DNA from: Rathayibacter iranicus NCPPB 2253 = VKM Ac-1602
Lineage (GTDB): Bacteria; Actinomycetota; Actinomycetes; Actinomycetales; Microbacteriaceae
Assembly: GCF_003149025.1 (NCBI RefSeq)
Contig: NZ_QGDV01000001.1
Span: 310,001-374,000, forward strand
DNA length: 64,000 nt
Direction: 5' to 3'
Below, one piece after another: positions 8,596 through 56,270 of the stretch. The notes beneath the pieces were generated by a model. The model had not been told where the DNA came from and did no database searches. It was given only the letters and a program-made list of their open reading frames with translations. Position 1 is the first letter of the stretch, and each line of letters begins with the position of its first letter. The position numbers were made by a program, and so were the translations under genes.

Positions 8596-9575
8596 GCGCC
8601 ACGCCCACTCCGATCCAGGTCCCGGTCGATCGCACCACCGAACGGCGCCTCCTGCGCGGGGAGTCCCGCATCGAGACGGCGAGCGGCAAGCTCAAGAAGG
8701 CGACGACGTCACGCGGAGCCACGCTGGCGGCGCTGATCATCGCGGTCATCTGGACCGTGCCGACACTCGGCCTGTTTATCTCGTCGTTCCGTCCCGCGAA
8801 CGACATCAAGACCACCGGCTGGTGGACGATCTTCGCTAACCCTGGCTTCACCCTCGACAACTACGCGAACGCCCTGAACTCGGGGGACAGCCTCACCCTC
8901 GGCAAGGCTTTCGTGAACTCGCTGGTCATCACGCTGCCGGCTGCGCTAATCCCGATCACGATCGCGAGCCTCGCCGCCTACGCTTTCGCGTGGATTGACT
9001 TCAAGGGCCGCAATACGGTGTTCGTCCTTGTCTTCTCGCTCCAGATCGTGCCCATCCAGATGGCGCTCGTGCCCCTGCTGCAGCTGTTCTCGGACGGCCT
9101 GCGTATCGGCGGGCTCTACATCCTTCCCGGCCTCGGCGTGAACGGGTTGGACGGCTCCTACGCCAAGGTGTGGATTGCGCATACGATCTTCGCCCTCCCG
9201 CTCGCGATCTTCATGCTGCACAACTTCATCTCGGAAATCCCGGGCGAAGTCATCGAGGCGGCACGCGTTGACGGAGCAGGTCACGGGCAAATCTTCTTCC
9301 GCATTGTGCTACCCCTCGCGGTACCGGCGATCGCCTCCTTCGGCATCTTCCAATTCCTCTGGGTGTGGAACGACCTGCTGGTGGCAACGGTGTTTACCTC
9401 GGGTGCGGGATTGCCGATCACAAAGGCACTCCAGGACCTCACCGGGTCGTATGGACAATCGTGGGAGCTGCTCACGGCCGGCGCCTTCATCTCGATCATC
9501 GTGCCGCTCATCGTGTTCTTCTCGCTCCAGAGGTTCTTTGTCCGCGGCCTCCTCGCCGGCGCCACCAAGGGCTGA
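8592..9575 (+). CDS. Carbohydrate ABC transporter permease (MalG/AglG-like)
   Basis: A 327-residue partner permease with six predicted membrane helices. The EAA loop is GEVIEAARVDGAGHGQIFFRIVLPL. ATG at 8592 overlaps the preceding stop. The C-terminal VFFSLQRFFVRGLLAGATKG ending is typical of the family. Its TGA stop (9573-9575) lies inside the left arm of the structured repeat that follows. No glycosidase or ATPase gene follows, unlike many agl-type operons. Confidence 0.93.
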   Translation: MSATPTPIQVPVDRTTERRLLRGESRIETASGKLKKATTSRGATLAALIIAVIWTVPTLGLFISSFRPANDIKTTGWWTIFANPGFTLDNYANALNSGDSLTLGKAFVNSLVITLPAALIPITIASLAAYAFAWIDFKGRNTVFVLVFSLQIVPIQMALVPLLQLFSDGLRIGGLYILPGLGVNGLDGSYAKVWIAHTIFALPLAIFMLHNFISEIPGEVIEAARVDGAGHGQIFFRIVLPLAVPAIASFGIFQFLWVWNDLLVATVFTSGAGLPITKALQDLTGSYGQSWELLTAGAFISIIVPLIVFFSLQRFFVRGLLAGATKG

Positions 9576-9676
9576 CGATTCGCGGTGCCGCCATCTGCGG
9601 CGTTGTCGTCGTCGGCAGTAGCTCCGCTACAGCTCTCCTCCTCCGCCTTGCAGCTGACGGCACCGCGAATCGTCAG
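9572..9676 (+). repeat. Structured 3' element, copy 1 (two unpaired cores, covarying stems)
   Basis: A perfect 19-bp inverted repeat (9572-9590 with 9658-9676) encloses a conserved middle. In order it holds: CTGC (pairs with GCAG); core A GGCGTTGTCGTC; an apical 8-bp stem with one mismatch, GCAGTAGC/GCTACAGC, closed by a TCC triloop; core B CCTCCTCCGCCTTGC; then the closing strands. The permease stop codon lies in the left arm and an intrinsic terminator starts 26 bp after the right arm, so the element belongs to the 3' UTR of the transporter mRNA. Copies 2 and 3 at 32737-32844 and 55043-55142 (minus) share the cores but have different stems. I do not recognise it as a named RNA family. Confidence 0.8.
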
Positions 9677-9702: not shown

Positions 9703-9746
9703 GACGAAGGCCCGGGTCCTGCTCGCGCAGGACCCGGGCCTTCGTC
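9703..9746 (+). terminator. Strong intrinsic terminator after the sugar transporter operon
   Basis: Perfect 20-bp stem: 9703-9722 pairs with 9727-9746 around a TCGC tetraloop. There is no clear T-run, as is common in actinobacteria. It ends the transporter mRNA just after structured element copy 1. Confidence 0.85.
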
Positions 9747-32525: not shown

Positions 32526-32744
32526 ATGGCTGTGACGGTTTACACCAAGCCCTCCTGCGTCCAGTGCACCGCGACCTACCGCGCCCTCGACAGCAAGGGC
32601 ATCGACTACGAGGTGTTCGACCTCTCCGTCGACGAGAAGGCTCTCGAGGCCGTCAAGGCCCTCGGCTACCTCCAGGCGCCGGTCGTGATCACGGACGATG
32701 ATCACTGGTCCGGCTTCCGCCCCGACAAAATCGCCTCTCTCTGA
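32526..32744 (+). CDS. nrdH: Glutaredoxin-like NrdH redoxin
   Basis: A 72-residue redoxin that donates electrons to the class Ib ribonucleotide reductase. Active site CVQC at residues 14-17 and the C-terminal WSGFRPDKIASL motif (WSGFRP) are diagnostic of NrdH. ATG 32526. Its stop (32742-32744) lies within the left arm of structured element copy 2. First gene of nrdHIEF. Confidence 0.97.
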   Translation: MAVTVYTKPSCVQCTATYRALDSKGIDYEVFDLSVDEKALEAVKALGYLQAPVVITDDDHWSGFRPDKIASL

Positions 32745-32844
32745 GGCGCACGGGCGGCGATTCGCTGCGTTGTCGTCAGTCGCCGTAGCGCCGCTACGGC
32801 TCCCTCCTCCGCCTTGCGACTCACCATCCGTGCACCTCAGAGAG
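32737..32844 (+). repeat. Structured 3' element, copy 2
   Basis: Outer arms CTCTCTGAGGCGCACGG (32737-32753) and its complement at 32828-32844 differ at one position. The second stem is TCGC/GCGA where copies 1 and 3 have CTGC/GCAG. Core A is TGCGTTGTCGTCAGTC, the apical stem GCCGTAGC/GCTACGGC is perfect with a GCC triloop, and core B is TCCCTCCTCCGCCTTGC. The nrdH stop codon lies in the left arm; the right arm ends 48 bp before nrdI. Confidence 0.8.
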
Positions 32845-55042: not shown

Positions 55043-55142
55043 CGCGGCCCTCAGCGGGGTGAGCTGCAAGGCGGAGGAGGGAGCGATACCAGAGGTATCG
55101 CGACCGACGACAATGCCGCAGATCGCCCCACTGAGGGCCGCG
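55043..55142 (-). repeat. Structured 3' element, copy 3
   Basis: On the minus strand: outer arms of 17 bp with one G-T wobble (55126-55142 with 55043-55059), CTGC/GCAG second stem, core A GGCATTGTCGTCGGTC, apical stem GCGATACC/GGTATCGC (perfect, triloop TCT), and core B TCCCTCCTCCGCCTTGC. It begins 6 nt after the binding-protein stop and lies in the 207-bp gap before the ATPase gene, inside the operon and oriented with transcription. Confidence 0.8.
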
Positions 55143-55148
55143 AGTGGA

Positions 55149-56270
55149 TCAGCTGTTGACTTCGGCGTCGGTGTAGTAGCCGCCGTCAACGAGCACGGAC
55201 TGGATCTGGTCTTTGGTGACGATGACCGGGTCAAGCAGGAAGGCCGGGACGGTCTTCTTGCCGTTGTCGTACGTGTCGGTGTCGTTGACCTCGGGCTCTG
55301 TGCCCTCGAGGACGGCCTGGGCCATCTTCACGGCCTCCTTGGCGAGTTCGCGGGTGTCCTTGTAGATGGTCGCGTACTGCTCGCCGGCGACGATCGCCTT
55401 GACCGAGTCAAGCTCTGCGTCCTGACCGGTGATGATCGGGAAGTCGGAGCCGACGGTGTACCCGGCATCGGTCAGAGCCGAGATGATGCCGCGGCTGAGG
55501 CCGTCGTAGGGCGAGAGGACGCCCTGAACCTTGGAGCCGTCGGAGTACGTCTTGGTGAGGATGTCCTCCATACGGCTCTGCGCGACCTCGCCGTCCCAGC
55601 GGAGCGTGGCGACGGTGCTGAAGTCGGTCTCGCCCGACTTCACGACGAGCGTCTTGTCATCGATGTACGGCTTGAGGGTGTCCATCGCACCCTTGAAGAA
55701 GAACGTGGCGTTGTTGTCGTCGGGGCTTCCCGCGAACAGCTCGATGTTGAAGGGGCCAGCGGGGGCGGTGGCGGCCTTGGCGCCGGTGAGGTCGGTGAGA
55801 CCGAGGCCGGCAAGGAGCGAGGTGGCCTGCTGGACGCCGACCTTGTAGTTGTCGAACGTGGCGTAGTAGTCGACGTTCTCGGAGTTGCGGATCAGGCGGT
55901 CGTAGGCGATGACGGGGATGTCGTTGGCCTTGGCCTCCTCGAGCACGCTCGTGAGCGTGGTGCCGTCGATCGACGCGACGATCAGGGCCTTGGCGCCCTT
56001 GGTGATCATGTTCTCGAGCTGCGAGACCTGGGTGGGGATGTCGTCCTCGGCGTACTGCAGGTCGACCTTATAGCCGGCCTCCTCGAGCTGCGACTTGACG
56101 TTGTTGCCGTCAGCGATCCAGCGCTCGGACGACTTGGTCGGCATTGCGACGCCGACGAGGCCGCCGTCGCCGGATCCCGAGCCGCCGCTTCCGGAGGAGC
56201 AGGCGGCGAGGGAGAGGATCATCGCTCCGCCGGCGATACCGGCGATGAGAGCGCGCTTCATTGTGGTCAC
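55149..56270 (-). CDS. ChvE-like sugar-binding lipoprotein
   Basis: A 373-residue periplasmic-binding-type lipoprotein. Lipobox LAAC (Cys about 24) is followed by a Gly/Ser linker. [59 protein letters not shown] and [23 protein letters not shown] are typical of ChvE/MmsE multiple-sugar-binding proteins. The GTG at 56270 has AAGGA 6 nt upstream; ATG 56261 is the alternative. First gene of the operon; promoter and operator lie upstream. Confidence 0.94.

Follow-up and report, generated by a model that had tools for sequence, protein, structure and literature searches.

Palindromic elements with a shared hairpin core lie at stop codons in Rathayibacter and resemble miniature transposons in other bacteria

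Three hairpins at gene ends

Three long imperfect hairpins of one type occur in the 64-kb stretch of Rathayibacter DNA analyzed here (hereafter, the window), each of which starts at, in or just after the last codons of a gene. Do they represent functional RNA structures at the 3' ends of mRNAs, as an earlier note on this DNA had concluded from compensatory changes in their stems, or is a different kind of element involved? Copy 1 (9572-9676, plus strand) starts at the TGA stop codon (9573-9575) of a sugar ABC permease gene and contains, on the same strand, a first conserved core (core A, GGCGTTGTCGTC, 9599-9610), an apical stem-loop with a TCC loop and one A.A mismatch (9615-9633), and a second core (core B, CTCCTCCGCCTTGC, 9638-9651). 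Copy 2 (32737-32844, plus strand) lies between nrdH and nrdI, with the nrdH stop codon (32742-32744) inside its 5' arm; its core A (TGCGTTGTCGTC) is found at 32766-32777 and its core B at 32804-32817, both on the plus strand. Copy 3 (55043-55142, minus strand) follows directly on a gene for a sugar-binding protein, whose stop codon is at 55149-55151, and precedes an ABC ATPase gene, with core A (GGCATTGTCGTC) at 55106-55117 and core B at 55066-55079, both on the minus strand. All three copies reported in the note are therefore present, with core B exact in each, and their common architecture and conserved cores uphold its grouping of them into one family. Its statement that the apical stems are paired in all copies holds in general, apart from the single A.A mismatch in copy 1 (GCAGTAGC/GCTACAGC). 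Core B itself is partly paired, GGCG with CGCC, leaving over a TT bulge. When folded as RNA, copies 1, 2 and 3 reach -61.7, -59.4 and -67.3 kcal/mol, with z-scores of -8.8, -6.3 and -9.1.

Intrinsic terminators were considered as candidates and rejected at all three copies under the criterion of a hairpin followed by a T run, as reading of the sequence found no run of at least 4 T within 20 bases past the hairpins. A separate, perfect long hairpin (GACGAAGGCCCGGGTCC...GGACCCGGGCCTTCGTC) is found at 9703-9746, about 27 nt past copy 1. It looks like the permease gene's own terminator, and its presence downstream counts against a terminator role for copy 1.

The note knew of no named family with these cores, and this stands: Rfam 15 gave 0 matches over the gathering score in the window, and in five loci searched at a lax threshold nothing beyond microRNA and snoRNA matches came up, none of which reached its cut-off. 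Among the literature matches listed, judged from titles and the starts of abstracts, no publication was recognized as dealing with this palindrome family, and the core letters used as a literature query brought up unrelated papers only.

Distribution of the family

The note had suggested searching the genome with a covariance model. A model of the local copies recovered 11 copies at nine loci in the 3.38-Mb genome that contains the window (E-values of 2e-19 to 3e-13), including two tandem pairs; the search listed 15 matches, four of which were opposite-strand reads of the same palindromes. Matches were present in every one of the 15 Rathayibacter genomes searched, compared with 1 of 22 genomes from other genera of the Microbacteriaceae, 2 of 23 from the rest of the order, and 11 of 149 in a phylum-wide draw that included the window genome. 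Scanning genome contigs for the exact core yielded at least 118 stretches, from Streptomyces, Rathayibacter, Nocardioides, Pseudonocardia, Micromonospora, Kribbella, Gordonia, Frondihabitans and Frigoribacterium, among others, as well as 11 clostridial records (Lachnospiraceae, Blautia, Anaerobium, Oscillospiraceae and others). Across these two phyla the core hardly varies, among loci that were themselves fetched by its exact letters. In 14 genomes reached through named loci, the number of matches ranged from 4 to 46 per genome. A Streptomyces copy matched 48 plasmid records, all of them from Streptomyces, and viral contigs gave one match; phage records contained no match to a Gordonia copy. 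No gene cluster within 2.5 kb accompanied more than 9 of 119 copies, and some of the clusters found were the element itself, so that a common neighboring gene was not seen at this distance.

Residence at stop codons in Rathayibacter

Within Rathayibacter, placement is highly regular. In the window and 60 stretches from the same genus, elements lay in sense to the upstream gene in 84 of 90 rows, as counted from home-made gene calls and with two elements counted twice via overlapping stretches. Arrays usually start, with their first unit, 4-18 nt past the stop codon; of the genes downstream of the 84 sense elements, 44 point in the same direction and 40 are convergent. The upstream genes with a nearby stop fall into 20 families among 60 sequences, including nrdH, a response regulator, prs, guaA, greA, sucD and transport genes; these names are a reading of the sequences, Pfam having been run on the window genes and on the insertion sequence (IS) described below.

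Three of these sites were compared between species. Nine of 15 species have the element at nrdH (one second copy was unparsed). Filled nrdH genes end in IASL, IATL or ISAL and empty ones in IATLGA, IATLA or IATLAS, so that filling of the site accompanies an altered gene end. The response regulator site carries the element in 13 of 15 species, and the prs site in 4 of the 14 read, with one genome cut at a contig end left out and one second copy unparsed. The arms at the nrdH, response regulator and prs loci tend to change jointly, with exceptions at nrdH in genome G005 and at prs in genome G011.

Other hairpins occur at the same sites. Several same-genus species carry a second small hairpin repeat (GGCCGTCGCTGYGCGACGAGCC) after the element downstream of the response regulator (L330, L337, L338, L340-L342), and the two genomes without the element at this gene have a terminator-like hairpin in its place (L343, L344). 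Between nrdH and nrdI, another long hairpin of the CCGGTCCGGGTGNGCAGGTTCTGCCCCGGACCGG type is found in species with and without the element (L286-L291, L293, L297-L299), and is absent from the window genome.

Tandem arrays of two to five units also occur in the genus. One five-unit array (L229:4076-4579) contains four units with decayed cores (GGTGGTGTGGGC for GGCGTTGTCGTC), pointing to decay of the array.

In five Rathayibacter genomes, near-identical dispersed copies were not found: the arms differ, and no dispersed pair exceeded 76% arm identity, bar two pairs that were one element fetched twice. Since such pairs are missing there and the same genes keep their elements between species, the Rathayibacter copies look old and vertically inherited. 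Neither a target duplication nor an IS-like terminal repeat was recognized around them, and an origin from miniature transposons in this genus would therefore have to be argued from the shared core.

Signs of mobility in other lineages

Outside Rathayibacter, several lineages carry marks of transposition. One Micromonospora genome contains, among 13 matches, 11 near-identical dispersed copies whose ends are GAGCGACCGGCA-type inverted repeats, and 9 of these 11 have the same TAA or TTA on both flanks, that is, a 3-bp target duplication. According to PMC2516522, members of the IS1031 group, within the IS5 family, commonly insert at three nucleotides. Five near-identical Gordonia copies are bounded by CTAG, which all five have at the 5' end and four at the 3' end; the remaining 3' site has decayed. 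Both lineages thus combine terminal inverted repeats and target duplication with short, non-coding, dispersed and near-identical copies (11 and 5, respectively), as would be expected of MITEs. Among 12 further loci (11 clostridial and one viral), CTAG was found at both ends in three and at one end in three.

In Streptomyces, 39 of 41 listed copies show a GGGYCT...GGATC-type 5' end, a loose pattern in which type-1 and type-2 ends overlap; 36 have the 3' end too, and 16 have an intact CTA ahead. Four Streptomyces copies have AGACCGACCGG-type ends. Type-1 ends at CTAG also bound an IS in a Streptomycetaceae plasmid, which encodes IS4/5-family (DUF4096) and DDE transposase domains. This IS5-family element was the only IS with matching ends that was seen in Streptomycetaceae. 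At seven lone or short-paired Micromonospora ends, no autonomous partner was found in 3-kb stretches whose open frames were read without a family scan.

The TAG within CTAG is a stop codon, which would account for the many Streptomyces copies that lie right next to stops. In a hand count of 80 elements outside Rathayibacter, the TAG stop of a sense gene formed the 5' boundary in 12, 52-54 nt before the core, while the TAG stop of an antisense gene formed the 3' boundary in 17, 53-54 or 78-80 nt past the core; four elements had both. With 12 sense and 17 antisense stops, orientation relative to genes is mixed outside Rathayibacter. The note had offered its structured 3' elements on the understanding that copies would not be placed at random relative to genes and strands, and that their arms would not simply be terminal repeats of a transposon. 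The first expectation is borne out within Rathayibacter, where copies are stop-anchored and in sense, but fails outside this genus; the second fails in several lineages, given their target duplications or matching IS.

We therefore consider it probable, from sequence comparison, that these copies are members of a large family, apparently without a name, of palindromic and MITE-like elements that contain no genes, share a hairpin core and reside in Rathayibacter as 3' hairpins. The core, of about 85 nt, comprises a hairpin whose internal loop is asymmetric and fixed, together with an apical stem, and is enclosed by inverted-repeat arms. IS5-family transposases may have moved the elements. The Rathayibacter copies would then be old residents, lying in sense, beginning at the stop codon and forming the 3' hairpin of the upstream gene. 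If these hairpins act at all, they most likely do so passively, by slowing 3' mRNA decay or by reducing read-through between genes such as nrdH and nrdI. Compensatory change keeps their arms paired, which would reflect either selection for a hairpin or the copying of one arm onto the other during replication. Several observations count against the MITE explanation: besides the lack of a recognized target duplication in Rathayibacter, of an autonomous partner at the Micromonospora ends, of a second matching IS in Streptomycetaceae and of a common gene within 2.5 kb, a palindromic target does not predict the sense-only placement in Rathayibacter, and transposition alone does not account for a core that is conserved over differing ends and two phyla.

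Covariation of the stems and the strand that folds

The observation on which the note built its case, that the stems differ in sequence and yet remain paired, was upheld: the covariation score was 0.397 for the 11 local copies, against 0.150 ± 0.019 for shuffles, and 0.462 for 45 diverse copies, against 0.142 ± 0.010. Paired stems alone, however, do not show a functional RNA. The covariation could instead be mutational, with a template switch of the DNA polymerase within the palindrome copying one arm onto the other without any selection on RNA, an explanation that we regard as possible but hold only tentatively, and that is compatible with the MITE-like origin proposed above. In line with such a switch, the arms copy even coding bases, as the nrdH ends CTCTCTGA, GCTCTGA and CCCTCTGA are matched by the 3' arm in genomes G000, G013 and G011; gene-end bases and arms differ species by species at this locus, and wobble intermediates are few. 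Against it, the nrdH gene end has changed in G005 while the 3' arm has not, and certain mismatches, in the core and at particular positions of the arms, are conserved rather than corrected, which means that something keeps them.

A functional 3' RNA element on the plus strand (i.e., the strand that the note had taken to fold), under selection for its RNA fold and serving as a terminator, a stabilizer or a protein-binding RNA, would agree well with several features of the Rathayibacter copies. These lie in sense at stop codons, persist at orthologous genes with compensatory changes in their arms, and occupy operon gaps such as those between nrdH and nrdI and between the binding protein and ATPase genes. 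The mismatches that remain in the stems argue otherwise. Considering pairs that are at least 70% Watson-Crick in the 45 diverse copies, we counted 43 A.C mismatches on the plus strand against 11 G.T, where shuffles gave 96 and 72 (P = 0.0005). One-mismatch hairpins after other genes of the same stretches showed the opposite tendency, with 10 GT and 5 AC, albeit in small numbers (Fisher P = 0.001); both P values are only a guide, the sequences being related. In other words, G.U pairs are depleted and A.C mismatches prevalent on the strand that would have to fold as RNA, and it is the opposite strand that folds better. In 116 of 122 thinned elements it was the minus strand that folded at lower energy, the mean difference being 12.4 kcal/mol (3.6 for shuffles), and with DNA parameters it was the more stable in 118 of 122. 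Together with the mixed gene orientation outside Rathayibacter, the missing T runs and the separate hairpin downstream of copy 1, these data make a plus-strand RNA element an unlikely explanation. The A.C excess and the better minus-strand fold also make the covariation poor evidence for a plus-strand RNA, and the note's step from compensatory change to a functional RNA on that strand was not supported. By the mismatch spectrum, selection across the family acts mainly on something other than an RNA of this strand; a fold of the minus strand, or selection against a stable plus-strand hairpin, fits the data better.

Could it then be the minus strand that works, either transcribed as antisense RNA or in the form of single-stranded DNA, with a core containing G.A and G.U pairs that is read by a putative conserved factor? 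RNAalifold gave -41.3 kcal/mol and 29 pairs for the minus strand, against -18.9 kcal/mol and 20 pairs for the plus strand, and the minus strand was still the more stable with the core replaced by a loop (41/44, 4/5, 40/44 and 1/1 elements in four groups). The near-invariance of the core across two phyla would suit this proposal as well, though the loci were fetched by its exact letters. We nevertheless doubt it. Copy 2 lies inside the nrd operon, where a minus-strand RNA would be antisense; the asymmetry between the strands could also arise if stable plus-strand hairpins were selected against on the lagging-strand template; and the G.A pairing of the core is a reading by eye rather than a computed one.

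Orientation relative to replication

In five same-genus genomes, with dnaA taken as the origin and its antipode as the terminus, 45 of 48 loci lay along the leading strand, the 48 loci being partly orthologous and hence not independent. The host genes of these loci (L225-L270) were on the leading strand in 35 of 38 cases, and other nearby genes in 186 of 286. One Streptomyces genome was treated as a linear chromosome replicated from dnaA (about 3.49 Mb); of its 25 copies 15 were listed, and 13 of these point the same way. Nine Frondihabitans copies, all on one strand, were counted for neither side, as the origin was not placed. The window itself contains copies in both directions, so the leading-strand rule is not strict. 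If the bias is real, the weaker-folding strand would face the lagging-strand template.

Discussion

Elements of this general kind are known. Bacterial MITEs that are cross-moved by IS of the IS5-family type are likewise short and gene-less, with terminal inverted repeats, repeated target bases, many copies and, as here, ends that match an IS in one lineage. Unlike them, the elements described here share one internal hairpin core across different ends, different target repeats and two phyla, and the Rathayibacter copies show no recognized target repeat. The BOX, RUP and SPRITE elements of Streptococcus pneumoniae, which in the description given in PMC3049150 are thought to be MITEs that affect co-transcribed genes, resemble our family in being small, interspersed and highly base-paired, in some cases with tandem modules; this likeness is one of description rather than sequence, and those elements are streptococcal, whereas ours occur in Actinomycetota and clostridia. 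REP and the GTAG- and CGTC-tagged repeats, as characterized in PMC3733652, are also palindromic, mostly downstream of genes and often close together, but form units of 20-40 bp with a terminal tag, compared with about 100-200 bp and an internal core here. An origin as REP elements moved by RAYT (an IS200-like tyrosine transposase) is highly improbable: the copies are indeed extragenic palindromes that often lie downstream of genes, but none of the 15 Rathayibacter genomes, each with copies, had a PF01797 match, and ends with direct repeats in other lineages suit DDE transposition. While the kind of element, a MITE-like palindrome, is thus already known, what sets this family apart is that elements with different ends, in two phyla, have one core in common, along with stop-codon-anchored residence in one genus.

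A more far-reaching variant can be conceived, which we think rather unlikely. In it, the core would be a transferable hairpin module, nearly constant in two phyla, which miniature transposons with different ends have acquired and which a widely conserved factor reads in the form of a folded minus strand; the palindrome would be polarized such that its weaker-folding strand faces the lagging-strand template, and the Rathayibacter host would have domesticated it at stop codons.

Our results indicate that compensatory change in a bacterial hairpin need not imply a functional RNA, and that the spectrum of mismatches, G.U versus A.C, tells which strand, if any, folds. They also describe a widespread and apparently unnamed element, in which one core is common to miniature transposons with different ends, and this raises the question of what recognizes the core in both actinomycetes and clostridia. 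In Rathayibacter, the filled and empty stop-codon sites form a natural series in which the effect of a resident palindrome on operon expression could be assessed.
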